Shown one piece after another: positions 2,284 through 40,019 of a stretch of DNA of 40,019 nucleotides (positions are counted from its first letter, which is position 1; the number at the start of each line of letters is the position of its first letter). This DNA comes from a bacterium (lineage in GTDB: Bacteria; BMS3Abin14), in NCBI GenBank assembly GCA_029210965.1, contig JARGFZ010000013.1, forward strand, positions 1-40,019, given 5' to 3'. The notes under the pieces were generated by a model, which was given only the letters and a program-made list of their open reading frames with translations, was not told the DNA's origin and made no database searches. The position numbers and the translations under genes are program-made.

Positions 2284-2360
2284 CAGTCCAGAGTCCAAAG
2301 TTCTGAGTTCAGGGTTCTGAGTTCTGAGTAAAGCTCTGCACTCTGATCTCTGAACTCTGA
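2284..2360. repeat. Eleven-unit degenerate heptamer array
   Basis: Eleven consecutive 7-bp units stay in register over 77 bp, drifting from GAGTCCA through GAGTTCT to ACTCTGA. It fills nearly the whole spacer between the carbonic anhydrase gene and the HD-domain gene and is one of the longest arrays in the window. Confidence 0.85.
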
Positions 2361-2913: not shown

Positions 2914-3432
2914 GGGGCCTCCCTGAAAGAAGATCTCAGATCTCAAATCTCAGATCTCAAAAGTTGTATCTGCATTCATCTGTATACACCACGTTGGTAT
3001 TTTTAACACAACAAGGGATTGATCTGCAAAAAGTTCCTCTTAAGCGATCAGAGCTTTAACGCAGGGTGACGCAGAGCGGCCGATTATGGCCGCACCGCAG
3101 AATTACGCAGGGTAGACCTGGGACTTGGGGTTAAGCACAGTTGCTATAAAGGCGATGTTTTTCACCACAGAGGAAAATGTGGGCACTGAGAAAACCTGAA
3201 AAAGGTTAAATGATTGTCATTCCGGGTCCTCGTTTCACTCTGCCCGGAATGACGTTTATCGGTACAAACACAGGTCTTTCCCCGTGTCTCCGCGTGGCCG
3301 CGTCTCCGTGTCCTATCTTCACCCATCACCTCGGTGTCACCCATCACCTCGGTTTCCACAATGAGGCGAGCGTGTTAAAGTTCGTGGATAAGGACTCAGG
3401 AACCAGTAATCAGAAAGGCCAGTACCCACTAT
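2914..3432. other. Non-coding spacer with arrays and inverted repeats
   Basis: No gene is supported in these 519 bp. The stretch holds a heptamer array at 2931-2958 (AGATCTC units). A hairpin at 3076-3093 has GCGGCC arms around GATTAT. An 11-bp inverted repeat at 3216-3226/3243-3253 (GTCATTCCGGG) resembles common dispersed GTCATTCC-type palindromes. An octamer array at 3280-3319 (CCCCGTGT, CTCCGCGT) is followed by an exact-but-one tandem 18-mer at 3320-3337 and 3338-3355. No promoter for the downstream penicillin-binding protein stands out. Confidence 0.7.
3280..3355. repeat. Octamer array plus tandem 18-mer
   Basis: Octamers with the pattern NNCCGNGT run in register from 3280 to about 3319. 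Two 18-bp units beginning CACCCATCACCTCGG follow at 3320 and 3338 and differ at one position. It lies upstream of the penicillin-binding protein gene. Confidence 0.75.
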
Positions 3433-5400
3433 ATGCCGCTATCAAGCAAATACAAATTATGGATCGGCCTCTCCGTCCTTGGAGCCCTCACAATTGGGGT
3501 CTTTCTGGGGACTCTTCTTGCTATTACCCAGGACCTGCCCCAGGTGGAGAGCCTCCAGACTTTTGAACCCTCCTCTGTAACAAGGATCCTGGCTGATGAT
3601 GGAAGACCTGTACGTTCCTTCTTTGTGGAACGTCGCATCCCCATTTCCATCCATGAGATCCCTGACAACCTTATAAAAGCTGTCGTTGCGGTGGAGGATG
3701 CGCGGTTCTATAAGCACTTCGGACTTGACCTGAGAGGGATACTTAGAGCCCTGTGGAGAGACGTCACCTCCCTGCGGGTGGTTGAAGGGGGCAGTACTTT
3801 AACCCAGCAGCTCTCCAAGGTCCTGTTCCTGACCCCTGAAAAAACTCTCATAAGAAAAATAAAGGAAGCCTTTCTGGCCATAAACATCGAGCGCAGATAC
3901 TCAAAGGAAGAGATCCTCTCCCTGTACCTGAACCAGATCTACCTGGGGGAGGGCGCATACGGTGTTGAAGCTGCCGCAAGAACATATTTCGGTAAGCATG
4001 CTCAGGAACTGACCCTCGCAGAGAGCGCCCTGATTGCCGGCCTGCCCCGCTCACCGGCCTTATATTCCCCCATAAACCATCCTGAAAGGGCAAGGCAGAG
4101 GATGAGGACCGTCCTCGATCGGCTGCTAACTGAAGGCTACATCACTCAAAAAGACCATGATGAAGCTGCTCAAACCGGCTTTTCTCTTTCCCCAACCCCC
4201 TCACCGGAGGATCCTGCACCCTATTTCACCGAGATAATAAGACAGGAACTGGAAGAAAAACTTGGTGCCAACCTGCTCTATCGGGGCGGGATTGTGATCG
4301 AATCAACACTGAACCTGGACCTGCAAAGGTCTGCCACGGAAGCGGTCAAAAGGGGAATTGCCGCTTATGAGGCAAGGCAGCCTGGAAAGACCGGGACACC
4401 TCCTGTCCAGGCCTCTTTCATCGCCCTGGCCCCTGCCAGTGGAGAGGTTAAGGCACTCGTAGGGGGACGGGATTTCACCTCTTCACCCTACAACCGCGCC
4501 ACACAGGCAAGACGCCAGCCTGGCTCAGCGTTCAAACCGGTTATTTATGCGGCCGCACTGGTCGCAGGTTTTCCTCCCACCACCCAATTGAATGACGAAC
4601 CTTTTGAGATTGAAATAAAAGGATCTCCTCCCTACGTTCCGGTGAACTATTCCGGGCACTACAGCGGTTCGGTTACATTGCGTTCAGCTTTGGAAAGATC
4701 GCTGAACGCTGCCTCCGTGGATCTTCTCATAAAGCTGGGATACCAGCCTGTTATGGATATGGCCCGGAGACTGGGTATTCGTTCTGAACTGAAGCCATAC
4801 CCCACCCTGGCTCTGGGTGTTTTTGATGTAAGCCTGCAGGAGATGGTGTCTGCCTATGGAATATTTGCCAACCGAGGAATTCTTGTGAGCCCCAGGTATA
4901 TAAGACGTGTCCTGAACCGGCAGGGACAGGTTTTCTGGGAGCCCCCACTTCAACTTTCAGATGCTCTGTCACCCGAGGTTGCCTATCTCACGACCAACGT
5001 TTTGGAGGGTGTTATCCAGCGCGGGACAGGAAAAAGAGCTGCTGTTCTGGGCCTGCCCCTGGCCGGAAAAACCGGGACAACGGATGATTACAAAGATGCC
5101 TGGTTCATCGGCTACACCCCTGACCTTGCTGCCGGGGCCTGGATGGGTTTTGACAAATCCGCCAGACTGGGAAATGGAGAAACCGGATCAAGGGCGGCCC
5201 TTCCCATCTGGATGACCTTTATGAAAAAAGCCATACAGGAAATACCTCCGTATGAGTTTGAGATCCCCTCCGGGATCGAGATCGTAGAGGTGGATCCGGA
5301 CTCGGGAATGCTGGCCGGGCCGAGGTGCGTCAAGCGCATCACCGAGGTGTTTCTCGAGGGGACGGCCCCGGAAGAAGTGTGTGGGATTCATCCTGATTGA
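3433..5400 (+). CDS. mrcA: Bifunctional class A penicillin-binding protein (PBP1A family)
   Basis: The 655-aa inner-membrane protein polymerises and cross-links peptidoglycan. A single N-terminal membrane helix (residues ~8-30) is followed by a GT51 glycosyltransferase domain with the catalytic E88-D89 in VEDARFYKH and the motif GGSTLTQQLSK. The transpeptidase domain has S365-x-x-K368 (PGSAFKP), S423-L-N425 and K546-T-G. It is shorter than E. coli PBP1A (about 850 residues), mostly because the linker between domains and the C-terminus are compact; all key residues are present. The start ATG has only a weak GAAAGG-like element far upstream. It appears monocistronic, followed by a heptamer array that begins inside the last codons. 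Confidence 0.93.
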   Translation: MPLSSKYKLWIGLSVLGALTIGVFLGTLLAITQDLPQVESLQTFEPSSVTRILADDGRPVRSFFVERRIPISIHEIPDNLIKAVVAVEDARFYKHFGLDLRGILRALWRDVTSLRVVEGGSTLTQQLSKVLFLTPEKTLIRKIKEAFLAINIERRYSKEEILSLYLNQIYLGEGAYGVEAAARTYFGKHAQELTLAESALIAGLPRSPALYSPINHPERARQRMRTVLDRLLTEGYITQKDHDEAAQTGFSLSPTPSPEDPAPYFTEIIRQELEEKLGANLLYRGGIVIESTLNLDLQRSATEAVKRGIAAYEARQPGKTGTPPVQASFIALAPASGEVKALVGGRDFTSSPYNRATQARRQPGSAFKPVIYAAALVAGFPPTTQLNDEPFEIEIKGSPPYVPVNYSGHYSGSVTLRSALERSLNAASVDLLIKLGYQPVMDMARRLGIRSELKPYPTLALGVFDVSLQEMVSAYGIFANRGILVSPRYIRRVLNRQGQVFWEPPLQLSDALSPEVAYLTTNVLEGVIQRGTGKRAAVLGLPLAGKTGTTDDYKDAWFIGYTPDLAAGAWMGFDKSARLGNGETGSRAALPIWMTFMKKAIQEIPPYEFEIPSGIEIVEVDPDSGMLAGPRCVKRITEVFLEGTAPEEVCGIHPD

Positions 5401-5477
5401 GGATTGAAACTTCCGGATTCAGAATTTAAACAGCATGATCCGAGAATCCCTAATCCTCAATTCTAAATGCGCAATTC
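5394..5477. repeat. Twelve-unit degenerate heptamer array
   Basis: From the last codons of the penicillin-binding protein gene, twelve 7-bp units with an ATT/ATC core keep register (for example TGATTGA, GGATTGA, GGATTCA, GAATTTA, later AGAATCC, CTAATCC, TCAATTC). A tandem 14-mer (two heptamers) follows at 5489-5502 and 5503-5516, with the shared core ACCTGAACTGT. Confidence 0.75.
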
Positions 5478-8420: not shown

Positions 8421-8550
8421 ATCAAAAGCTTATTGTCACCAAAATCCGCCGATCTCTATTCAAATATGAAATAAGGGATTTGGAATCCGGAATTCCCTAT
8501 CCGCCAGCCCAAGGTTGTGCTTGTCATGCAGCCCTTAAAGCCTGAAAGTT

Positions 8551-8628
8551 GATGACTTCACAAAAAGTCATCAATGCGCCCCGCGCGGGGCGCCCAAATC
8601 AATGACTCACTCCGTAAGTCATTGATTT
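8551..8628 (+). repeat. Miniature inverted-repeat element, copy B (left half only)
   Basis: It matches the left half of the full copy at 29194: the terminal hairpin GATGACTT...AAGTCATC, the perfect palindrome GCGCCCCGCGCGGGGCGC, and the AAATCAATGACT/AGTCATTGATTT stem. The right half is absent, and the sequence passes directly into the end of the FecR gene, whose TAA stop (8627-8629) uses the last bases. The expected left target duplicate (AAAGTT, 8545-8550) has no partner on the right. Confidence 0.85.
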
Positions 8629-11734: not shown

Positions 11735-11758
11735 GTGAATCGTGAAGAGTGAACCGTC
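11735..11758. repeat. Heptamer array (GTGAATC word)
   Basis: GTGAATC, GTGAAGA and GTGAACC are in register in the 83-bp spacer between the broken CHASE2 gene and the coiled-coil gene. Confidence 0.6.
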
Positions 11759-19184: not shown

Positions 19185-19771
19185 TATGTTTACGGTAATT
19201 TTTGTGCCACGGTGGGAAATATTCCGGATTAAGTGAATTCCATCACGCTAACGCATACCTGGGTTAACCAACGGTTATTATAAAGGGAATGTTTTTTCAC
19301 CACGGAGGCACCGGGGAAAAAAAGAAGAGCTTGATTTTAAAAAAGGCACCGGTCCTTTAAGTTGAGAAAATCTAAAAGAAGTTAAGCGTTCGTCAATTCG
19401 AAAATTTCCACTTCGATACTTGATGGACTCGCAAAAAGTCCAATCCGGGACTTTTCGCTCCACGGAAAGGGAAAAGCGTTGTTTTCCCTTTCCTTACAGA
19501 TCAATTACTTACGGAGTGAGTCATTGATCCGGGCGCACCGCGCGGGGCGCATTGATGACTTTTTGCGATTCTATCATACTTAGACACCTGAATTCAGTCT
19601 TTATCCGCCTTTCTCCCAGGTGGTTTCAGATTTAACCCTGTGTCACCCTGTGAACCCTGTGGTGAAAGCTTTAAGACTTTGGCAGTGATCGGTTTTTAGA
19701 AGCAGGACTCATTTGCAGGAATTATTTTCCAGGATGAGCCTAACTTTTTACATTAACAACACACCTTAACT
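19185..19771. other. Non-coding spacer containing repeat copy C
   Basis: No gene is supported. Apart from the mobile element at 19422-19575, the stretch shows a TTCACCACGGAGGCACCGG-like word (19295-19316) and a ~10-bp-period array of CCCTGTG words at 19636-19662. Nothing else is recognisable. Confidence 0.6.
19416..19581 (-). repeat. Miniature inverted-repeat element, copy C (complete, with target duplication)
   Basis: The element proper is 19422-19575 (154 bp), in the reverse orientation relative to the copy at 29194. It starts GATGGACTCGCAAAAAGTC and ends GACTTTTTGCGATTCTATC. Perfect 6-bp direct repeats ATACTT flank it at 19416-19421 and 19576-19581. The internal hairpins GGAAAGGGAAAA/TTTTCCCTTTCC, the GTCATTG stem (with one mutation) and the GC-rich palindrome are present. 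Confidence 0.9.
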
Positions 19772-20942: not shown

Positions 20943-21018
20943 CCTATAGCCTATAGCCCATAGCCTATTGCCCATTGCCTGCTCTCCCCCGTTGGACGTT
21001 GGGCATTGGACCTTGGAC
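20943..21018. repeat. Two heptamer arrays (CCTATAG and GTTGGAC words)
   Basis: 20943-20977 holds five units drifting from CCTATAG to CCCATTG. 20991-21018 holds GTTGGAC, GTTGGGC, ATTGGAC and CTTGGAC. Both are perfectly in register, in the spacer after the aminopeptidase gene. Confidence 0.85.
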
Positions 21019-21026
21019 TGTTTTAT

Positions 21027-22136
21027 TTACCATCCCCTCTTACCATTATCCAGCAGCATCCTTCTCCCCCCTCCCGTCTCCCAGACAGCGACAAGGGTCG
21101 CGTCGAAAAGCACGAAATCCTGGTGAAGAGGAGCCTTGACGACACCACCGAAGGTGTGGTTGTCCCCGAAGGCCACATGAACGGTTCCGAGGATCTTTTC
21201 CGACTCCAGAACGTTGTCAGGTCTGGTTGCCGCCTGATTAGTGCCGATGCCCAATTCAGCGATATTTGTATTGTTGGGATGGGCAGACAGTAGCTCCTTC
21301 AGCCAATTGACCTCATCTGATATGTCCCCATTCACCGACACAACCTTTCCACCCTCGATCGTTACAGTGAGAGGGCTTTTGAACCTTGCCAGGGGACCCC
21401 ATTCAAGCACCAGGATCCCCTCGGCGGTTCCCTCCACAGGCGCCAGAAAGACCTCTCCAGCAGGCAAATTACCGAACTTGCCATTCCGGGTCAGCATACC
21501 ATCGTCCGGAGTGACCGGTCTTTCCTTTATCCCCAGAACCAGACGGGTGCCGTTGGGTGAACTTATCTCGCATCTATCCGCTCCCTCAAGAGCCCTGGCC
21601 AAAAGGTTGGTGGACACTGCCAACTGTTCCCAATCCACATCCATGGAACCGAAAAACATCTCTCTTTCAAAATTGGGCATGCTGGCGTATCTCACTCCGC
21701 ATGCCTGATTCAAAAGTTTTCGAAAAGAGGTGTGGCTAGTTGAAAAACGGGTCACAGCCACCACGACAGCGGCTCTGGCACCACCTGAACCCTCTATGAT
21801 ACGCGATGCGCTTTCCAGTGTCCTGAGATCCCCTGCTTTGGATAACAGGGGAGCCAAAAGGCCCTCTGAATCAAGGCGGTCAACGACCTGCTCCCCGAAC
21901 AGGGTCTCCCAGACCTCCCTGGGCGGCTCCTGTCCGTGTCCCCCTGCCGGATCGAAAATCAATGTCCGGGTGCGAGGGTGCAGCTTTTGGGCAGCTTCCC
22001 CGACCTCCTTTGCAAGCTTTCCCCCATCCCCCGCGGAATCACCCAGGATAAGGAGCCGTTCGTCTTCTTGTAGACCCATATTGACAGAAAGGAGGGATTG
22101 GACGGCATTTTCGATGGAAGGTTTATCGCTCGACAT
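21027..22136 (-). CDS. M29-like aminopeptidase
   Basis: The 369-aa protein resembles the thermophilic/leucyl aminopeptidase M29 family. The C-terminal catalytic region shows NIAELGIGTNQAATR, ESEKILGTVHVAFGDNHTFGG and PLHQDFVLFDATL, with the conserved Glu, Glu-His and His-x-Asp metal ligands. The N-terminal half is the family's less conserved Rossmann-like domain. It would remove N-terminal residues from peptides using two divalent metals. Length is slightly below the usual ~400 residues, and the central region is divergent, so exact specificity is uncertain. GAGGA lies about nine bases upstream of ATG 22136. Confidence 0.8.
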   Translation of the reverse strand: MSSDKPSIENAVQSLLSVNMGLQEDERLLILGDSAGDGGKLAKEVGEAAQKLHPRTRTLIFDPAGGHGQEPPREVWETLFGEQVVDRLDSEGLLAPLLSKAGDLRTLESASRIIEGSGGARAAVVVAVTRFSTSHTSFRKLLNQACGVRYASMPNFEREMFFGSMDVDWEQLAVSTNLLARALEGADRCEISSPNGTRLVLGIKERPVTPDDGMLTRNGKFGNLPAGEVFLAPVEGTAEGILVLEWGPLARFKSPLTVTIEGGKVVSVNGDISDEVNWLKELLSAHPNNTNIAELGIGTNQAATRPDNVLESEKILGTVHVAFGDNHTFGGVVKAPLHQDFVLFDATLVAVWETGGGRRMLLDNGKRGW

Positions 22137-22382: not shown

Positions 22383-22547
22383 AACATTGTCAGGGTCGCA
22401 AAAAGTCCATTATTGGCTTTTTGCTCCTCGGAAAGTGAAAAGTGTCATTTTCACTTTTCTTACAAATCAATGACTTACACCCGCAGTCATTGATTTGGGT
22501 GCCCATACGGGGCGCCTTGATGGACTTTTTGCGAGTCCATCAACATT
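22383..22547 (-). repeat. Miniature inverted-repeat element, copy D (complete, with target duplication)
   Basis: The element is 22389-22541 (153 bp), in reverse orientation, with a 6-bp direct repeat AACATT at 22383-22388 and 22542-22547. It is the most diverged full copy. Its pyrimidine/purine stem reads AAAGTGAAAA/TTTTCACTTT where other copies have AAAGGGAAAA/TTTTCCCTTT, a compensated base-pair change. The ATCAATGACT/AGTCATTGAT stem keeps its arms around a different loop. Confidence 0.9.
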
Positions 22548-22578
22548 CTACATTCTGCGTTCTGCGTCCTGCGTGCTG
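22544..22578. repeat. Heptamer array abutting copy D
   Basis: Five units in register, CATTCTA, CATTCTG, CGTTCTG, CGTCCTG, CGTGCTG, begin at the end of copy D and stop four bases before the response-regulator stop codon. Confidence 0.85.
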
Positions 22579-22606
22579 GGGATCAGGATTCCTTCCTGAT
22601 CCCCAG
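22576..22606 (-). terminator. Strong hairpin spanning the response-regulator stop codon
   Basis: CTGGGGATCAGGA and TCCTGATCCCCAG form a perfect 13-bp stem with a 5-nt loop. The TGA stop of the NtrX-like gene lies inside it. There is no U-tract after it, so it may act as an RNA-stabilising end or Rho-related structure rather than a classical intrinsic terminator. Confidence 0.5.
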
Positions 22607-23980
22607 TTGCTTCATCTTCCGGTGGAGGTTGCTCCGCTCAAGTCCCACCGCATCGGAAGTTCTCGAGATATTCCACTCATTCTCATCAAGACGGCGTGTG
22701 AAGAAACCTTTTTCAAACATCTTTCTTGCCTTGCGATAGTCGGTCTCCTCCACGGCGCTTTCAGCCGCACCGGCAGGCCCTGAGCCCCTATCCGTAATGG
22801 AAGAAGGCACCATGCCAAGATCGATCACCTCCCGTGCGGATATGATCGCCAGTCGTTCCGCTACATTACGCAGCTCACGCACATTGCCTGGCCAGGCATA
22901 TTCAACAAGGGCTTTTTCTGCTTCAGGACTGAAAACCAGGTCCGGCTTGCTGTAGATCTGTCCATATTCAGACAGGAAGCGAGTCAACATCTTAGGGATA
23001 TCCTCCCTGCGCTCCCTCAGGGGCGGCAGGTGGAACGGGAAGACGTTCAAACGGAAGAACAGATCCTCTCTGAACTCCCCTCTTTCAATACAGGTCTTAA
23101 GATCCTTGTTGGTAGCTGCTACCACCCGGACATCCACGGAAATATCCCTGTTGCCGCCAACTCTCTGGAAGGTTTTCTCCTCCAGGACTCTAAGGATCTT
23201 GGCCTGAGTGGCGAGGCTCATGTCGCCGATCTCGTCCAGAAAGAGTGTGCCGCAGTGGGCCAAGTCGAATTTGCCCATTTTCCTTGAAGAGGCACCTGTG
23301 AAGGCTCCCCTTTCGTGACCGAAAAGCTCGCTTTCTATGAGGGTCTCAGGAATCGCCGCGCAGTTTACAGCCACGAACGCCTCTCCGCTCCGCCGGGAAG
23401 AGAAGTGAATGGATCTGGCCAGCAGCTCCTTCCCGGTTCCGTTCTCTCCGGTAATCAAAACGGAAGCTTGTGTCGGCGCAACGATCCTGACCTGCTCCAG
23501 CATAGCGGTGATAGCCGGAGATACCCCGATAAACTCCGATTCGCTCCCACCCTCACCTTTCAGAGCCCTGTTTTTCTCGAGAAGCGCGCGCTGGCTTAGA
23601 GCGTTTCGAAGGACAAGCTCAAGTTTATCTATGGAGAGAGGTTTTTCCAGGAAGTCGTAAGCACCCAGCTTGGCAGCCTTCACTGCTGTTTCAATGGTTC
23701 CATGACCGGACATTATGATCACGGGCAGATCCGCATCGAGTTGTTTGATCCCCCTCAGTACTTCAATTCCATCCAGATCGGGCATCCAGATATCCAGGAG
23801 TACACTGTCGGGTTTGTCCGCAGACACCCTTTTAAGTCCCTCCTGCCCATCAGACGCCTCAATAACAACAAAGCCCTCATCCTCCAGAATAGACCGGATA
23901 CTCTCACGAACCCTTGGCTCATCATCCACGATGAGGATCAGATCTGAGGGCCCGTGTTCTCCTGCAACTTCCCTTTCCAT
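22583..23980 (-). CDS. Sigma-54-dependent response regulator, NtrX-like
   Basis: The 465-aa protein has three domains. The receiver has the phospho-acceptor D63 in LLDIWMPD and the acidic pocket VDDE. The AAA+ activator has Walker A GENGTGKE, the sigma-54 contact loop GAFTGA, Walker B TLFLDEIGDM and the arginine-finger region LRERREDIP. The C-terminal Fis-type helix-turn-helix contains ISRTSDAVGLERSNLHRKMK. It activates RNA polymerase-sigma54 when phosphorylated by the adjacent NtrY-like kinase. ATG 23980 has GGAGG upstream; the frame is open to 24061 inside the kinase gene. It follows the kinase stop by two bases. Confidence 0.94.
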   Translation of the reverse strand: MEREVAGEHGPSDLILIVDDEPRVRESIRSILEDEGFVVIEASDGQEGLKRVSADKPDSVLLDIWMPDLDGIEVLRGIKQLDADLPVIIMSGHGTIETAVKAAKLGAYDFLEKPLSIDKLELVLRNALSQRALLEKNRALKGEGGSESEFIGVSPAITAMLEQVRIVAPTQASVLITGENGTGKELLARSIHFSSRRSGEAFVAVNCAAIPETLIESELFGHERGAFTGASSRKMGKFDLAHCGTLFLDEIGDMSLATQAKILRVLEEKTFQRVGGNRDISVDVRVVAATNKDLKTCIERGEFREDLFFRLNVFPFHLPPLRERREDIPKMLTRFLSEYGQIYSKPDLVFSPEAEKALVEYAWPGNVRELRNVAERLAIISAREVIDLGMVPSSITDRGSGPAGAAESAVEETDYRKARKMFEKGFFTRRLDENEWNISRTSDAVGLERSNLHRKMKQLGIRKES

Positions 23981-23982
23981 CT

Positions 23983-26175
23983 CTATATCCTCCTGGTAGG
24001 ATCCACATCCACCGGTATCTGAATGGTAAACACCGCACCGCCCATGGGACCTGGAGTACAATCCAGCCTCCCGCCATGTTCTTCCACGATGCGCTGGGCT
24101 ATTGCCAGTCCGAGTCCTGTTCCGTCCTCGCGAGTGCTGAAATAGGGGTCAAATATCCGGTCCATTAGATCCGCTGGAATACCGGAACCGTTATCGGACA
24201 CAGAAACAGCCACCATCCCCTCCTCAATGATGCTGGTGGAAATACGCACGATACCCTCCTCACCGCGATCCTGGACAGCCCTGATGGCGTTGTCGAGGAG
24301 GTTGATAATGACACGCCTCATCTGTTCGTCATCGTAACTGATCCTTCGGAGGTTTTTTTCCAGGGATACCTCAACTGCCCCTCCCCCTTCACCACCAACC
24401 CTGAAAAGAGCTGCAGCCTCCTCAACGGCATTGTTAATATCACCCGGCACCAGTTTCAATACCGGCAAGCGGGCGAACTGACTGAATTCATCCACAAGGT
24501 GACGCATAGCATCCACTTCCCGGACGATTGCATCGGTTCCCTCCCTGAGAACACGATCATCGGCCTCATCCAGACGGCCAATAAGCTTCCTTCGTATCCT
24601 TTGAGCTGATAACTGGATGGGCGTTAATGGATTTTTGATCTCATGGGCGATCCTCTTGGCAGCTTCTGACCATGCTGCCTTGCGTTGGGCGTTTACCAGC
24701 ATTGTCATGTCCTCGATGACGAATACTGTTCCAATGTTTTTCCCTGGAGCGTCCTCCATGACGCTGACGGTGACAAAAAGGATGAGGGGAGTACCTTGAA
24801 CAACTATCGGTATCTCCCTTCTTATTCTGGCTACACCTTCTTCCCTGAGTTCGCCGAGCATCCCATCGATGAGAGCCGCGTGCTCCAGAGTCAAAACTTT
24901 GGAATAATACTTTTCCAGCACATCTTCTGCCTTGACGTCAAACATCCTCTCGGCAGCCCGATTGAAGGTATTGACCCTACCCGCAAGGTCCATGGAAACA
25001 ACCCCGGTACCAACGTTCCTGAGCACAGTTTCAATATAGGTCCTTCGCTGTTCGTTTTCACGGTAGGCCTTATCAAGTTTCCTGTTAGCACCGTCAAGCT
25101 CCTCAGTCATCCTGTTGAAAGCCTGGACCAATATCCCGATCTCATCCGACGCCTCGCTGTCGATCCGTACCGTAAGATCGCCGGAGGCCACCTTCTCAGC
25201 TCCTTCGGCCAGGAGACCAAGGGGAACGGTGATGCCCCTGGCAAGGTAGAACCCTAGCCATACTGCCGAGAACAGGATGAGCAGGGTGATCAAAAGCAGG
25301 TAGGACATATAGTTGAGCCTGATAGGGCGTTCCTGGAGCCTCATCTCCGTATAGCTGCGGTAGGTTCGGCTGAGGGTCTCGGATTTAAAACGAACTTCCT
25401 CGGGAAAATGCAGGGAAACCACAACGGCGCCCTGTCCGTCAGGCAGGATGAGGGGAGCCGATGCCCTGATGTACTCGCCTTTATCCGCGCTGCTTACGTT
25501 GTCGACAACCCTGCCCACAAGGGCGTTCTGTACGAGGCTGCTCTGATTATCCACAAAGTTTTGAGGGCTGGTACCGTCCCAGGCCCTGGCCATGAAACCA
25601 CCAGATGCATCAAACATGTCAACCATGGACAGAGCGTATTCTTTCCTTATCTCCTCCAGAAGGTCTTCCAGATCCTTACCCTCAGGTGGGGACTCAAGGC
25701 GGCTGCTTACCCTCTGGGCAAGGACCCTGGAACGATCGGTCAAGGTGGAATAGTAGTCCCTGGACACACTGAGAGCGCCCTCAACAGCCTGATCCACGTT
25801 GGGATTAAACCAGTACCCTATGCTGTCGGTGATAAACCCCTTGGCCACAAAGAAGAGGAGGATCGTAGGGATCAGGGAAAAACCCACGAAGATTAGAACC
25901 AGGCGGGTCCTGAGGTGATATCCGAAAACCCGTGCCCGTCCCTCGTAGAACAGTTTGATGGCGTTTCTGGCGAGCAAAAAGACGAGAACTGTTAAAAGGA
26001 TGATGTTTATATTGATCAGGAAGAAGATGAACAGGTTGCCACCCTTGGGATCTAAATCCCGCATGGATTTGTACCTGCTACCGAAAAAGAGGACCAGGGC
26101 GATGAGAAGAAGGATCACGACAATAGCCGTAAACCTGCTTCGGTTGTCCCTGAATTTAAGCGACCAGAACCTCAT
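23983..26175 (-). CDS. NtrY-like membrane sensor histidine kinase
   Basis: The 730-aa kinase has two or three N-terminal membrane helices (TAIVVILLLIALVLFFGS; FLININIILLTVLVFLLA), a sensor region, another helix, then HAMP (LLAEGAEKVASGDLTVRI), PAS (TVLRNVGTGVVSMDLAGRV), the HisKA box with phospho-accepting H511 (AAKRIAHEIKNPLTPIQ) and HATPase_c (NLLDNAIRAV, DNGSGIPADLMDRIFDPYFS). This is the NtrY layout common in deltaproteobacteria. ATG 26175 is preferred over 26184 because GAGGAG sits nine bases before it but directly abuts the upstream ATG. It starts 13 bp after the DUF4390 gene; the three form one operon. The signal sensed is unknown. Confidence 0.93.
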   Translation of the reverse strand: MRFWSLKFRDNRSRFTAIVVILLLIALVLFFGSRYKSMRDLDPKGGNLFIFFLININIILLTVLVFLLARNAIKLFYEGRARVFGYHLRTRLVLIFVGFSLIPTILLFFVAKGFITDSIGYWFNPNVDQAVEGALSVSRDYYSTLTDRSRVLAQRVSSRLESPPEGKDLEDLLEEIRKEYALSMVDMFDASGGFMARAWDGTSPQNFVDNQSSLVQNALVGRVVDNVSSADKGEYIRASAPLILPDGQGAVVVSLHFPEEVRFKSETLSRTYRSYTEMRLQERPIRLNYMSYLLLITLLILFSAVWLGFYLARGITVPLGLLAEGAEKVASGDLTVRIDSEASDEIGILVQAFNRMTEELDGANRKLDKAYRENEQRRTYIETVLRNVGTGVVSMDLAGRVNTFNRAAERMFDVKAEDVLEKYYSKVLTLEHAALIDGMLGELREEGVARIRREIPIVVQGTPLILFVTVSVMEDAPGKNIGTVFVIEDMTMLVNAQRKAAWSEAAKRIAHEIKNPLTPIQLSAQRIRRKLIGRLDEADDRVLREGTDAIVREVDAMRHLVDEFSQFARLPVLKLVPGDINNAVEEAAALFRVGGEGGGAVEVSLEKNLRRISYDDEQMRRVIINLLDNAIRAVQDRGEEGIVRISTSIIEEGMVAVSVSDNGSGIPADLMDRIFDPYFSTREDGTGLGLAIAQRIVEEHGGRLDCTPGPMGGAVFTIQIPVDVDPTRRI

Positions 26176-26910: not shown

Positions 26911-27149
26911 AAGATTAAAACATCAAGCCTGAGGAAACAAGACAAAAGTGTTGCAAAAACAACACATAGAATTTTATGAGCAAAATTTAATGTGCTAGTC
27001 CTGGACCTAGACCTGGACGCTGACTTGGTTATAATAGGAATGATGAAGGAAAAAGGATGACGGAGGAAAAATGGTGAATTATTCGTACTCCCTCATCCCC
27101 TATTCCTTATTCTGATGCTGGGACTACTACCAAGGACTAGGACCAAACA
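26911..27149. other. Divergent spacer upstream of the M48 gene
   Basis: It holds a small hairpin GTGTTG-CAAAAA-CAACAC (26948-26965) and a 6-bp-period array (27000-27026: CTGGAC, CTAGAC, CTGGAC, GCTGAC). A TATAAT at 27030-27035 has no matching -35. A second related word stretch follows (27118-27145). A promoter for the M48 gene is likely here but not convincingly located. Confidence 0.5.
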
Positions 27150-28469: not shown

Positions 28470-28550
28470 TCTAGAGTGCAGAGTGTTAAGGTAAAGGCGG
28501 TTTTGAGGTTTGAGGTTTGAGTACTGGGTACTGGGTGCTGGATATTAAAG
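28469..28550. repeat. Heptamer arrays after the M48 gene
   Basis: 28469-28489 carries GTCTAGA and GTGCAGA. From 28502 seven units stay in register while the word changes: TTTGAGG twice, TTTGAGT, ACTGGGT twice, GCTGGAT, ATTAAAG. The change of word without loss of register is notable. Confidence 0.85.
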
Positions 28551-28614: not shown

Positions 28615-29016
28615 ATGCGATTCTTAACCAACTGGTTCCTTTACGCTCTGGCCATTGGCATCACCGCCTGGATCCTGCCTGGGGTTCACCTCAACGGGGT
28701 CTTCGCAGCCCTGGTCACGGCTGCCATCCTTGGCTTCGTAAACGGGGTCCTGCGGCCTGTTTTGTTTATCTTTACCTTTCCCCTGACCATCCTTACCCTG
28801 GGCCTCTTCACCTTTGTGCTTAATGCACTCATGGTCCTGCTGGCGGCGGCCATCGTTCAGGGGTTTATCGTTGACGGCTTCTGGTGGGCAGTACTCTTCT
28901 CTCTGATCATGTCTGTGGTCATCTATCTCCTGGGTGAGGCTACGGAACCGCCTGAGAGGACCATACGGTATGTGAGGCAGGGACCGGATGGGAGAAGGGA
29001 GAGGGATGTCAATTGA
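28615..29016 (+). CDS. Holin-superfamily-IV-like four-helix membrane protein
   Basis: The 133-aa protein has four hydrophobic helices (FLYALAIGITAWILPGV, AALVTAAILGFVNGVLRPVL, LTLGLFTFVLNALMVLLAAA, WWAVLFSLIMSVVIYLLG) and a charged, arginine-rich tail. This is the pattern of the phage holin family 4/PF04020 proteins, which are common chromosomal genes in bacteria and usually not phage-linked. No phage genes lie nearby. GAGG lies about seven bases upstream of ATG 28615. Function in the host is unknown. Confidence 0.88.
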   Translation: MRFLTNWFLYALAIGITAWILPGVHLNGVFAALVTAAILGFVNGVLRPVLFIFTFPLTILTLGLFTFVLNALMVLLAAAIVQGFIVDGFWWAVLFSLIMSVVIYLLGEATEPPERTIRYVRQGPDGRRERDVN

Positions 29017-29135
29017 GCGCATCGGGCTCAATTGACAGTACGCAGGTCGCAGGGCGAAGAGCGCAGGAAAAGCAAGTTGAGACTTGATTACTAAGGCTTA
29101 ATCTGAGGGGGAGTTTAATTGGTTGGGGTACGAGG

Positions 29136-29187: not shown

Positions 29188-29353
29188 AAGTTTGATGACT
29201 TCGCAAAAAGTCATCAATGCGCCCCGCGCGGGGCGCTCAAATCAATGACTCACTCCGTAAGTCATTGATTTGTAAGGAAAGGGAAAACGATGCTTTTCCC
29301 TTTCCGTGGAGCGAAAAGTCCCGGATTGGACTTTTTGCGACTCTATCAAGTTT
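29188..29353 (+). repeat. Miniature inverted-repeat element, copy F (complete, reference copy)
   Basis: The element is 29194-29347 (154 bp), flanked by AAGTTT at 29188-29193 and 29348-29353. In order it contains a terminal hairpin (GATGACTT, loop, AAGTCATC), the 18-bp palindrome GCGCCCCGCGCGGGGCGC, the AAATCAATGACT/AGTCATTGATTT stem, the 12-bp stem GGAAAGGGAAAA/TTTTCCCTTTCC, and a last hairpin CGAAAAGTCC/GGACTTTTTGCG. No open reading frame of note is present. Confidence 0.92.
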
Positions 29354-29377
29354 GATGTCTGAAGTTTGAAGTTTGAT
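29350..29377. repeat. Heptamer array abutting copy F
   Basis: GTTTGAT, GTCTGAA, GTTTGAA, GTTTGAT in register begin within the target duplication of copy F. A hairpin CACGCC-AAA-GGCGTG follows at 29443-29457; the remainder up to 29468 shows nothing else. Confidence 0.8.
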
Positions 29378-29468
29378 GTTGTTGTAATCGTACTGGATAC
29401 CCGGCTCTTGATCTTTCCCCGTTTCGCCGATTCCAAACTTGCCACGCCAAAGGCGTGATTTCCCCGTT

Positions 29469-29900: not shown

Positions 29901-29964
29901 GACGCGAAGACGCGGAGACGCGGTGAGGAAAGATCTTTCTCCGTGTCCCCGTGTCTTCGTGTCA
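29901..29964. repeat. Eight-unit octamer array
   Basis: Octamers GACGCGAA, GACGCGGA, GACGCGGT and GAGGAAAG, then CCGTGTCC, CCGTGTCT and TCGTGTCA, keep an 8-bp register throughout. The first half is close to the reverse complement of the second in word type. It lies directly before the stop of the isocitrate dehydrogenase gene. Confidence 0.85.
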
Positions 29965-32589: not shown

Positions 32590-32624
32590 GTTTGAAGTTT
32601 GAGGTTTGATGTTTGATGTTTGAT
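32590..32624. repeat. Five-unit heptamer array (GTTTGAT word)
   Basis: GTTTGAA, GTTTGAG and three GTTTGAT units are in register. The same word flanks copies F and G. Confidence 0.88.
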
Positions 32625-32686
32625 ATTGCTGGAATCGTCTCCCCTACCGAATCATGTATGAGCACTCTTATCTTGAACGCTAAATA

Positions 32687-33018: not shown

Positions 33019-33084
33019 GATTCTGAATTCTGGCTCCTGAATTCAAGTTTTTCCAGACCTTAGACCCTAGACACCAGACACTAC
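33019..33084. repeat. Two heptamer arrays before the flavodoxin gene end
   Basis: 33019-33046 holds GATTCTG, AATTCTG, GCTCCTG and AATTCAA. 33057-33084 holds ACCTTAG, ACCCTAG, ACACCAG and ACACTAC. The second overlaps the last codons of the flavodoxin-like gene. Confidence 0.8.
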
Positions 33085-33582
33085 AAACTCCTCGATCCGG
33101 TCAATGAACGGATCGACGCTTCCCATTTCCATTCTATCGAATCCCGTCGTTTCCCTCCCTATCTTCTCATAGAACGCCAGGATCCTGGATTCGTCCTCGT
33201 CGTCCAGTTCCTCCATGAGCATGCGACCGCCCAGGACGGCTACCGCGAAGGGCTCCGAGGGCAGGAAACGGGTGAGTTTTTCAAGGTTCTTATTCCCCCC
33301 CTCCCCTGCCTTGGGATTCCAAAGGGTGTCTCCGCACACCACAAAGGCGGCAAAAGGCTTACCAGCCAGGAGATCCTGGTACTTGTCAAGAAACGCCTCC
33401 ATCTCCGGAAGAACCGAATATGCGTATATCGGACTACCCAAAACGATGAAATCCGCCCTCGAAACCGCATCAGATGATGCTTCAGACGCCCTCAGAGCCT
33501 CTGTACCGAGCTTTTGTGCCATAAGGGAGGCATACTCGGCCGTGGAACCGTATTTACTCGCGAAAACGATCATTCCCTTCAT
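33067..33582 (-). CDS. Flavodoxin-domain protein (HemG-like)
   Basis: The 171-aa protein has the flavodoxin fold. The FMN phosphate loop is SKYGSTAEYA near the N-terminus, then IVLGSPIYAYSVLPEMEAFL and FVVCGDTLWNP. Size and motifs resemble the flavodoxin/menaquinone-dependent protoporphyrinogen oxidase (HemG-like) group rather than electron-carrier flavodoxins. It would bind FMN in the cytosol; its partner is not evident. The last four codons lie in a heptamer array, so the C-terminus may have been altered by array growth. Confidence 0.85.
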   Translation of the reverse strand: MKGMIVFASKYGSTAEYASLMAQKLGTEALRASEASSDAVSRADFIVLGSPIYAYSVLPEMEAFLDKYQDLLAGKPFAAFVVCGDTLWNPKAGEGGNKNLEKLTRFLPSEPFAVAVLGGRMLMEELDDEDESRILAFYEKIGRETTGFDRMEMGSVDPFIDRIEEFVVSGV

Positions 33583-33595
33583 CGTTTTCGCTCAG

Positions 33596-33704
33596 GTTCC
33601 AAATTCCACGTTCCAGGTTCCATATATTTCACCGACATTATATCTCCATGTTCCTGCGTCCGAGGTTTTTCTTCAGGTTCGAACTTCAAACCTCAAACAT
33701 CAAA
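33596..33704. repeat. Heptamer arrays between the flavodoxin gene and copy G
   Basis: 33596-33623 holds GTTCCAA, ATTCCAC, GTTCCAG and GTTCCAT. 33684-33704 holds CTTCAAA, CCTCAAA and CATCAAA and runs into the left target duplication of copy G. The right flank of copy G continues with CATCAAA, CTTCAAA (33857-33870). Confidence 0.85.
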
Positions 33705-33866
33705 CTTGACAGGGTCGCAAAAAGTCCGTAATCGGCTTTTTGCTCCTCGGAAAGGCAAAAGCGTCGTTTTCCCTTTCCTTACAAATCAATGACTTACGGA
33801 GTGAGTCATTGATTTGGGCGCCCCGCGCGGGGCGCATTGATGACTTTTTGCGAAGTCATCAAACTT
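33702..33866 (-). repeat. Miniature inverted-repeat element, copy G (complete, inside a heptamer array)
   Basis: The element is 33708-33860 (153 bp), in reverse orientation, with AAACTT at 33702-33707 and 33861-33866. Heptamer units of the same word and orientation flank both sides, as though the element inserted into an existing array. Internal stems match copy F apart from one mismatch in the purine stem. Confidence 0.92.
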
Positions 33867-33883: not shown

Positions 33884-34026
33884 CAAGTCGCTCAGTCGGT
33901 CAGTCGTTTTCTCCCCCCTCCCCCATGCTCCCAAGCACCCATGCTCCCTTTTCCCCGTATCGCCGTGTCCCCGTGTCAGATGGTTTCTCTACGTTTCCCC
34001 GACACCCCGATACCCCGTTACCCCGA
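33884..34026. repeat. Long octamer arrays overlapping the SMUG1 gene end
   Basis: 33884-33907 has CAAGTCGC, TCAGTCGG and TCAGTCGT. From 33923 thirteen octamers stay in register to 34026, drifting from CCATGCTC to CCGTGTCC and TACCCCGA. The last two units include the stop and final codon of the uracil-DNA glycosylase gene. Confidence 0.85.
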
Positions 34027-34755: not shown

Positions 34756-35032
34756 TGCCACAATATATCGTATGTATCTGAATGATACTAGTCAGCCAGC
34801 GGGCATCTCAGAATTCAGATTTCAGATCTCAGAACAAGACTCAAAACCACCACCAGATGCCATATAACTCCTCTGAGATTTGAGATTTGAGATATGAGAT
34901 CCGTCCCAAACTCCTGTCTTGACAAAAGTGACAAATTTCCCCAGAATATCGTTAGTGTCAAGTTACGGTCGACACTTTTGGCCTGCCTTTTATTGGAATC
35001 GGCGTCATGCTGCCAGAGGAGATTGATATCCC
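34756..35032. other. Divergent spacer with mirrored heptamer arrays
   Basis: Heptamers CATCTCA, GAATTCA, GATTTCA and GATCTCA (34804-34831) and, 43 bp on, GAGATTT, GAGATTT, GAGATAT and GAGATCC (34875-34902) are of opposite orientation and could fold back on each other. Further right, AGTGTC/GACACT (34954-34959, 34971-34976) and CAAAAGTG/CACTTTTG (34923-34930, 34973-34980) form inverted repeats upstream of the J-domain gene. A TTGACA at 34919 lacks a good -10. Confidence 0.6.
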
Positions 35033-36355: not shown

Positions 36356-36378
36356 TGTTGTTACCTCCCTCTAAATCC

Positions 36379-36561
36379 GTGAATCGTGATTCGTAATAAG
36401 TGATTAGAAAAAAAATTCAGTGCGCTTTTTGAAACTCGAAATCATCTTGTATCAATCTGTAATCAGAACAGTTAGAGTGCCACAAAATTCGAATTCATAC
36501 AAGGGTTAACAGCTTATTGATCCACGTTTTTTCCAATCACGAGTCACGAATCTCAAATCAC
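36379..36561. repeat. Two heptamer arrays of opposite orientation
   Basis: 36379-36406 holds GTGAATC, GTGATTC, GTAATAA and GTGATTA. 36534-36561 holds CAATCAC, GAGTCAC, GAATCTC and AAATCAC. The second is the reverse complement type of the first. Together they bracket the 211-bp spacer between rubrerythrin and sdhB. Confidence 0.8.
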
Positions 36562-36566
36562 GGACC

Positions 36567-37337
36567 TTAAAACACCAACGCCTTCAAATACTCCCTGTTC
36601 AGCCTGGCGATAAACTTCACGTCGATCCCTTTCGGGCACGCCGCCTGGCACTCGTAGTGGTTTGTGCAGTTGCCGAAACCGCACTCCTGCATGGCCCCAA
36701 GCATGCTGTTCACACGCTCAACTGCCTCAACCTTGCCCTGGGGCAGTTCGGCCAACTGGGACACCTTGGCCCCCGTAAAGAGCATGGCTGCCCCGTTGGG
36801 GCAGGCGGCAACACATGCGCCGCATCCAATACACTCGGCAGCATCCATGGCATAATCGGCCTTTTCCTTGGAAATGAGGATGGAATTACCGTCAGCCGCA
36901 GCCCCGGTGCGCACTGAGGTATAACCGCCAGCCTGGATGATCTTGTCCAGGGCGCCCCGGTCCACCACGAGGTCCTTGAGGATGGGGAAGGCTTTGGCCC
37001 GCCACGGCTCTATATAAATGGTGTCCCCATCCTTGAACTTGCGCATGTGCAGTTGGCACACGGTGGTCCGTGTCTGTCCGCCATGGGGAAGTCCGTTGAT
37101 GACCTGGGAGCAGGTTCCGCAAATACCCTCCCTGCAGTCGTGGTCGTATACGATAGGCTCCTTCCCCTCCTTGATAAGGTCCTCGTTCACAACATCGAGC
37201 ATCTCCAGGAAAGAATGGTGTTCGGTGATCTCCCTGGCAAGGTAGGTCTCAAAGCGGCCCGGCTCGTTGGGCCCCTTCTGGCGCCAGACGATCAACTTCA
37301 GGGTCATCGTCCTGTGATCATTATTGGATGGGCTCAT
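36567..37337 (-). CDS. sdhB: Succinate dehydrogenase/fumarate reductase iron-sulfur subunit
   Basis: The 256-aa protein has a plant-type [2Fe-2S] site with C68, C73, C76 and C94, a [4Fe-4S] site C169-x-x-C-x-x-C-x-x-x-C179, and a third cluster site with C219, C224, C230 and C234. It passes electrons between the flavoprotein and the cytochrome b subunit at the membrane. Its ATG overlaps the sdhA stop by one base (TAATG), typical of coupled translation; ATG 37307 is an alternative. The extended cysteine spacing ([12 protein letters not shown]) is normal for the type B enzymes of deltaproteobacteria. It is the last gene of the sdhCAB operon. Confidence 0.96.
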
Positions 37338-39958: not shown

Positions 39959-40019
39959 AATAGGGTCGCAAAAAGTCCAGGCGGGTCTTTTTGCTCCACG
40001 GAAAGGGAAAAGTGTCATT
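39959..40019 (-). repeat. Miniature inverted-repeat element, copy H (cut by window end)
   Basis: The sequence from AGGGTCGCAAAAAGTCC through GGAAAGGGAAAAGTGTCATT matches the start of reverse-oriented copies D and G. It begins about 31 bp upstream of the sdhC start codon, so sdh transcription probably starts within or passes through it. The loop GTGTCA matches copy D rather than F. Confidence 0.85.

Follow-up and report, generated by a model that had tools for sequence, protein, structure and literature searches.

Paired, polar arrays of tandem heptads at gene ends in a bacterial lineage: putative DNA-level marks of gene boundaries

Many of the longer intergenic spacers in the genome of the uncultured bacterium studied here have, at their edges, tandem arrays of seven-base (sometimes eight-base) words which, in their most regular form, are four units long, occur as inverted pairs, and point with a fixed polarity at the nearest gene end. 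What was observed directly comprises the architecture of the arrays, their copy number, polarity and location, the vocabulary that they share and their turnover. From these sequence patterns we infer that a protein might read the arrays and that they might have a role at gene boundaries. We tentatively favor, at somewhat short of even probability, a reading of the arrays as putative sequence-specific, polar and often paired recognition sites, which would mark gene boundaries at the level of DNA. Earlier work repeatedly noted tandem heptads in bacterial spacers and ascribed them to slippage, to regulator sites or to repeats that spread horizontally. With the rules described below, namely arms of four units, units of six bases and a loose seventh, pairing in inverted order, a polarity set by gene ends rather than by transcription and a shared but swappable vocabulary, the writer or reader of a polar gene-edge mark becomes a testable question. 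Whichever answer held, a protein system that marks boundaries or a repair pathway that caps ends, it would be new biology and would account for the fast turnover of spacers in these lineages.

The window, i.e. the whole stretch of 40,019 nucleotides that was analyzed, is part of a draft genome of 3.19 Mb (G000; 157 contigs, 99% complete). Among the loci found, the nearest relative to bear a name is the MAG 'bacterium isolate PFL40', with a penicillin-binding protein that is 93% identical. The sequence sampled comprised the window and 800 kb more of G000 (837 kb in total), 800 kb of the congener G002 (a one-contig genome), about 170 kb of the congener G001, smaller pieces of other family members and 215 kb of Desulfobacterota-type MAGs. 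Genes were called with a home-made caller based on codon usage, which missed some genes and gives exact stops and approximate starts. Lag identity was compared with dinucleotide shuffles, individual sites were tested against 2000 shuffles, and arrays were counted by drift-tolerant detection at periods 4–13 in intergenic and coding DNA.

A preliminary description of the window had proposed that degenerate heptamer arrays fill its spacers, and would have been refuted by a lag-7 signal no higher than in shuffled spacers; autocorrelation gave the opposite result, and the description was confirmed in part. The lag-7 identity of intergenic DNA in the window is 0.329, as against 0.255 ± 0.006 in dinucleotide shuffles (z = 12.2), with harmonics at lag 14 (z = 8.0) and lag 21 (z = 4.4). 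Lags 8–13 in the same spacers lie at or near background (|z| ≤ 2.1), and coding DNA of the window displays codon periodicity only, without the lag-7 signal. In the 837 kb of G000, 244 intergenic and 20 coding arrays were counted at 7 bp, and 63 and 5, respectively, at 8 bp, as against 10 and 7 at 9 bp and 18 and 14 at 6 bp; the remaining periods between 4 and 13 gave fewer than 10 in spacers. The 800 kb of G002 contain 330 arrays at 7 bp and 56 at 8 bp. This 7/8 bp spectrum recurs in several Desulfobacterota-type MAG loci, and was not seen in most of the Bacillota, Nitrospirota or other loci retrieved. Octad arrays accompany the heptads in the window at 3279–3312, 29901–29963 and 33913–34026 (TCTCCGTG, GACGCGGA, CCCCGATA). 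The paired ones obey the same bracket rule as the heptads, as in the arm GACGCGGA on the plus strand (29901–29926) and its partner TCCCCGTG/TCTCCGTG on the minus strand (29938–29963).

At the level of single sites, the stretches 2284–2360 and 5394–5477 have lag-7 identities of 0.69 and 0.52, respectively, with 0 of 2000 shuffles as high in either case. The arrays reported at 1115, 2931, 12758, 20943, 22544, 29350, 32590, 33684, 34875 and 36379 were likewise confirmed, while one at 11735 (GTGAATC), which lies inside an ORF, is not above chance (p = 0.075). The two long stretches had been taken for single arrays of 11 and 12 units, but each instead consists of two arms of opposite orientation that could fold together: AGTTCTG... 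and then CTCTGAACT... in the former, and GATTGAG... and then ...CTCAATTC in the latter. The leading families of arms are built of a six-base core followed by a loose seventh base (TGAGATN, CTGCGTN, CTTTGGN and GTTCACN); in TGAGATN the core positions are conserved at 96–100% and position 7 at 43–46%. Exactly four units are present in 51 of 68 TGAGATN, 20 of 27 CTGCGTN and 19 of 21 CTTTGGN arrays in G002, and in 26 of 45 TGAGATN arrays in G000. The phase in which an arm ends is also fixed, with C following all 34 four-unit CTGCGTN arrays (CT in 32) and all 26 CTTTGGN arrays. Minor word families are smaller and show less regularity, and arrays of 8–13 units also occur.

The arms are arranged as brackets. 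Of the cases in which two arrays lie 30–100 bp from each other, 11 of 30 in G000 and 22 of 44 in G002 are inverted partners, as against 4% of random pairs. Within a family, inverted partners no more than 250 bp apart stand in a constant order (55:1, octads included), and TGAGAT pairs invariably read ATCTCA and then TGAGAT (22:0), across spacers of 13–197 bp. Arrays at spacer edges point their word outward at the nearest gene end, by 62:1 for TGAGATN, 24:0 for CTGCGTN, 16:2 for CTTTGGN, 8:0 for GTTCACN and 14:2 for CTCCTGN; TGAGATN arrays are found about 4–5 bp after stops and 16–17 bp before starts. An unsupervised comparison of polarity gave an agreement of 95% in G000 and 84% in G002, as against 50% when flipped. 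Start-side and stop-side arrays agree in orientation in 177:14 and 438:77 comparisons of similar words; hence, polarity is set by gene body versus spacer and not by transcription. In the Desulfobacterota, heptad arrays at edges lie at a median of 5–12 bp from gene ends and, with other words, similar words are mostly co-oriented (18:5, 5:0 and 2:0, all small numbers). The inward purine fraction at edges in G000 and G002 is 0.56–0.61 for heptads and 0.65–0.71 for octads; a purine asymmetry as a general signature of end addition was nevertheless rejected, as it fails for some words. Replacement of intrinsic terminators by arrays was also rejected, since no difference was seen in terminators next to arrays.

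Several spacers of the window illustrate these arrangements. The spacer 2282–2367 has a left arm on the plus strand (2285–2329; AGTCCAG AGTCCAA AGTTCTG AGTTCAG GGTTCTG AGTTCTG), whose first two units resemble CCAAAGN, the word bracketing the same spacer in G002, and a right arm on the minus strand (2334–2363) with an inverted copy of the left-arm word (CTCTGAACTCTGAACT). Four TGAGATN units, read on the minus strand (2931–2959), immediately precede the ribosome site (GGAGGC) of an HD-domain gene and stand about 17 bp upstream of its ATG at 2913; G002 has the same array in the same place, and G001 has TGGAATN there. The longest-ORF start of this gene (2368–2946; TTG at 2946) would fall within the heptad array, and the ATG at 2913 behind GGAGGC is the likely start. 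The plus-strand GTAATGG array (1114–1138), 14 bp after the stop of the gene at 80–1099, has a possible partner in a weaker facing array, CCCTCTTCCCCCTTACCCTTTCCC, on the minus strand (1175–1198), 4 bp from the stop of the gene at 1203–1646. A bracket running from GATTGAGGATTGA... to ...CCTAATCCTCAATTC (5401–5477) immediately follows the penicillin-binding protein gene, which has its stop at 5400. In the divergent spacer 34762–35032, a TGAGATN bracket is made up of the left arm TCAGATTTCAGATCTCAGA on the minus strand (34808–34833) and four TGAGATN units on the plus strand (34874–34900). Another pair combines CGTGAATCGTGATTCGTAAT on the plus strand (36378–36407), at 22 bp from the rubrerythrin gene start, with TCACGAGTCACGAATCTCAAATC on the minus strand (36537–36559), where the pattern continues to about 36562 and so comes within 4 bp of the stop of the gene at 36567–37337. 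The arms GAATGATGAAGGAAAAAGGATGACGGAGGA (27038–27067, plus) and TCCCTCATCCCCTATTCCTTATTC (27089–27112, minus) are weak, each with a score of 9. Further plus-strand arrays comprise CCTATAG/CCCATAG (20943–20979); CGTTGGA (20990–21018), 8 bp from the stop of the gene at 21027–22136; CTACATT/CTGCGTN with the outer CTG of its family (22540–22578), facing the gene at 22583–24061 at 4 bp from its stop; a CAGNACG-like array (29036–29066), 20 bp after the stop of the gene at 28615–29016; five units of GTTTGAT (32590–32627); and TTCCAAN (33597–33622), 14 bp from the start end of the gene at 33067–33582. Two arrays abut a MITE-like repeat: GTTTGAT on the plus strand (29350–29380) and its reverse, ATCAAAC, on the minus strand (33678–33705).

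The words are drawn from a shared vocabulary. Each spacer had been thought to hold its own word, but words recur, with 85 distinct ones in 157 arrays of the first 437 kb sampled, as against 142.6 ± 3.2 expected from letter-shuffled words. Nor are they private to one genome, as 79 of 146 arrays in the sister species G002 use a G000 word (14 expected). Clustering yields about 37 (36–37) heptad and 15–18 octad families, which recur genome-wide. In the G000 genome, the pattern TGAGATNTGAGATNTGAGAT was counted 168 times and its reverse 0 times; the pattern occurs 153 times in G002, 41 in G001, 55 in G006 and 19 in G004, and was absent from the other genomes tried. The vocabulary of G000 and G002 includes 61 of 73 words from G001 and 14 of 18 from G006. 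A vocabulary common with the Desulfobacterota was rejected, with 9 of 57 words shared as against 11 expected by chance. The vocabulary is a property of the lineage, and the grammar is wider. The supposed drift of words along an array holds in part: arrays can change word in register, as at 28502–28541 (plus strand), where two to three TTTGAGG units give way to two to three of TACTGGG, and at 22540–22578, but in the main families the variation is mostly confined to one fixed loose position of the seven.

Comparison of relatives revealed that the words turn over at sites which keep their arrays. Between G000 and G002 (about 77% protein identity), a stop-side array is present at the same gene edge in both genomes in 19 cases, as against 9.4 expected from marginals that take no account of spacer length, and the same word is found at only 3 of 25 shared edges (1.5 by shuffling). 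Between G000 and G001, in which gene ends are 93.5% identical, 14 edges have arrays in both and the word is kept at 4. Upstream of the penicillin-binding protein gene, TGAGATN is present in G000 (at the HD-gene edge) and in G002 (at both edges), and TGGAATN at both edges in G001. Several loci have, in a relative, a new word that is common to the two arms. In spacer 2 of locus L105, the right flank aligns up to a bracket of the GAAGGAN type in G000 and of the GTGTAGN type in G001; in spacer 19 of this locus, which encloses the parS-like GTTTCACGTGAAAC, TGAGATN is replaced by TGGAATN on both arms, while the left arms align base by base and one odd unit (ATTTCAT) is common to both versions. The spacers between arms are essentially single-copy, with almost none repeated, and no target-site duplication was found around the brackets. 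As words turn over while the bracket stays, the grammar appears to be maintained and the word to be replaceable. A shared vocabulary swapped from place to place in this way speaks against simple copying slips, and points to a putative gene-boundary mark. The parS-like site (GTTCCACGTGAAAC; GTTTCACGTGAAAC in G001) lies inside a TGAGATN bracket at about 19293–19544 of L105.

Under the boundary-mark reading, the layout would be gene end, inward word four times, spacer, outward word four times and gene end. One arm would consist of about four units (30–33 bp), each with roughly six conserved bases and a loose seventh, and a protein would bind with one subunit or dimer per step of 7 bp (or 8 bp), cooperating along the array. 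The boundary role might be, for example, a one-way block to polymerase leaving the gene, or an insulator. It is the facing of an arm toward the gene end, at start or stop alike, that suggests a boundary mark rather than a promoter or RNA element. Position 7 is complementary between the two arms in 5 of 33 cases (10 expected), and coding-strand mismatches number 94 for G.U and 118 for A.C; these two features together argue for recognition on DNA and not by folding. Against recognition sites, the roughly 37 word families would need many readers, word change at loci 93–97% identical in their genes is faster than expected for a fixed regulon, and the lack of a difference in the intrinsic terminators beside arrays also counts against this reading. 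In the quarter to 40% of two proteomes covered, no expanded family of small DNA-binding proteins was found. Dedicated RHH paralogues were rejected as readers, there being too few (RHH_1 0–3 per genome). The broadest form of the idea, in which paired one-way brackets of four heptads or octads mark where genes end with any word of the lineage vocabulary, both arms are rewritten in concert, and the same grammar holds in at least two distant bacterial groups, is rather unlikely to be correct in full.

The most substantial rival, although doubtful, regards the arms as REP-like elements, i.e. short sequences that move or are copied, or else as caps placed on the ends of broken DNA. In the capping version, a break in a spacer would be eroded to the gene edges, the same word would be copied onto both 3' ends from arms elsewhere, and the ends would be rejoined around filler DNA; polarity would then come from 3'-end synthesis, and the arrays would need no function. 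Copying or capping accounts for polarity relative to gene ends whatever the transcription, for the same word on both sides, for arms about 5 bp from stops, for single-copy spacers and the replacement of whole spacers between relatives, and for a vocabulary inherited within the family while positions turn over. Repair-like end capping gives the best account of polarity and of the turnover of spacers, but does not explain the pattern of conserved core and loose base, as copying should carry the seventh base along with the core, yet this base is randomized and the core is not. The rival also has to contend with the lack of target-site duplications, the near lack of repeated spacers, and the left arms of L105, which align base by base with an altered word and were thus changed in place. 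A TIR transposon or MITE was rejected for want of target-site duplications and a shared interior, with spacers essentially single-copy. The enzymes sought for such mobilization did not turn up in array-bearing relatives: no Y1 transposase match was found in G001 (91% complete) or G009 (98% complete), which disfavors RAYT mobilization, and no reverse transcriptase (RVT_1) match in G001, G002, G004 or G006, which disfavors reverse-transcriptase templating. G000 itself has two RVT_1 matches (C36:24593–25141 and C11:45053–45709, one frame with internal stops), which were not found in its congeners.

That each pair folds into a transcript hairpin, acting as a terminator, as a stabilizer or in the control of translation, is improbable; other forms of this idea have been put forward for the TAACTGA repeats. 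The arms of the pairs analyzed are at least 70% complementary, some fold strongly (-33 and -35 kcal/mol), and many arrays immediately precede a ribosome site or follow a stop. However, the G.U counts and position 7 noted above speak against pairing, starts and stops have opposite words on the sense strand, the same arrangement is seen in single arms and in divergent and convergent spacers, and the window has no Rfam match. We regard as highly improbable a further mechanism, replication slippage on 7–8 bp words (simple-sequence repeats) with drift by mutation. Period 7 dominates long simple-sequence repeats in many bacteria (Mrazek 2007, as cited in PMC4679880), and arrays of 8–13 units do exist, but slippage does not account for the four-unit mode, the fixed loose position, the fixed polarity, the inverted partners or the shared vocabulary. 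A contingency-locus simple-sequence repeat, which would have near-identical units, variable copy number and no polarity, was rejected on similar grounds. The preliminary description had offered slippage or templated extension as the cause. The former is disfavored by the copy number of four, the same loose position in hundreds of units, the shared vocabulary and the polarity, whereas templated extension would give polarity and may apply, although a reverse transcriptase, the obvious enzyme for it, was not found in G001, G002, G004 or G006. The view of the preliminary description that a process which keeps the period and changes the word is at work, distinct from the classic fixed-word STRR, is sustained.

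The closest known system is that of Geobacter metallireducens, with dispersed, mostly paired tandem heptads and octads (GTTGCTYN, TCTCCGTS, MTYCTGA and GGACCGG) predicted to be global-regulator sites of classes 1–3, hypothetically protein-binding, along with the four-heptad elements Gmet_H4 (Aklujkar 2009, PMC2700814). The arrays described here share with them three to five tandem units of 7–8 bp and pairs on opposite strands at variable distance. The window words include TCTCCGTG and ATTCTGA-like ones, and TCTCCGTS is also a class 2 consensus of Geobacter metallireducens. The approximately 37 heptad and 15–18 octad families, the gene-edge polarity rule and the swapping of words at orthologous sites set our arrays apart, the last two not being found for the Geobacter sites in the parts of PMC2700814 consulted. 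The TAACTGA repeats of Beggiatoaceae (MacGregor 2015, PMC4679880) are intergenic heptads, in two to six copies in BOGUAY, near start codons; they use one fixed word, mostly before starts, with related heptamers rare, in contrast to the many words at starts and stops alike seen here. Cyanobacterial STRR and the GGGAATC-type repeats of Xanthomonas and Nostoc (PMC4692102) are degenerate intergenic heptads, some inverted. The latter are G-rich and single-word with 2–26 units, unlike our arrays, which are not G-rich and mostly have four, and STRR comprise one or few fixed words per genome, as against 36–37 heptad families. REPINs and BIMEs (PMC3116915, PMC2817692) likewise form inverted pairs of extragenic sequences, of 20–40 bp, around a spacer, but are made of palindromic REPs linked to RAYT, whereas the arms here are direct tandem heptads and no Y1 transposase of the RAYT type turned up in G001 and G009, which both bear arrays. 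The ParB(omega)-parS system of pSM19035 (PMC9499535) has contiguous non-palindromic 7-bp units, each bound by one RHH dimer, with at least four required for full activity, and our arrays resemble it in their contiguous 7-bp units, at least four in number. A cooperative binder with one 7-bp step per subunit is thus a known solution, which by analogy might apply here; however, the omega/ParB sites are a plasmid centromere with the single word WATCACW, which is absent from our main families, and the genomes have only 0–3 RHH_1 proteins each. In the passages of this literature that were covered, the polarity rule, the four-unit standard and the concerted replacement of words were not found.

Two other elements occur alongside the arrays. 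The MITE-like repeat is about 157–160 bp long and highly structured, with ends TTGATGACTTCGCAAAAAGTCATCAA ... GGACTTTTTGCGA and the inner sequence GCGCCCCGCGCGGGGCGC, and has copies in the window at 1–77, 8549–8628, 19419–19568, 22392–22543, 29191–29350, 33705–33863 and 39960–40012. It occurs at 37 places in the 837 kb of G000 and at 3 in the 800 kb of G002, and several G001 contigs end in it. An origin of the arrays from this repeat was ruled out, as only 5 of the 37 copies adjoin an array. In spacer 1 of L108, a heptad array that runs without a break in G000 contains a copy of the repeat in G001. The second element, TTGTCCGCCATAGCTGGTCG...GCGTTAGCGACGGCGGA (L116 10981–11050 and L137 4692–4761), has TGAGATN flanks that are direct, and not inverted, in both G000 and G002.
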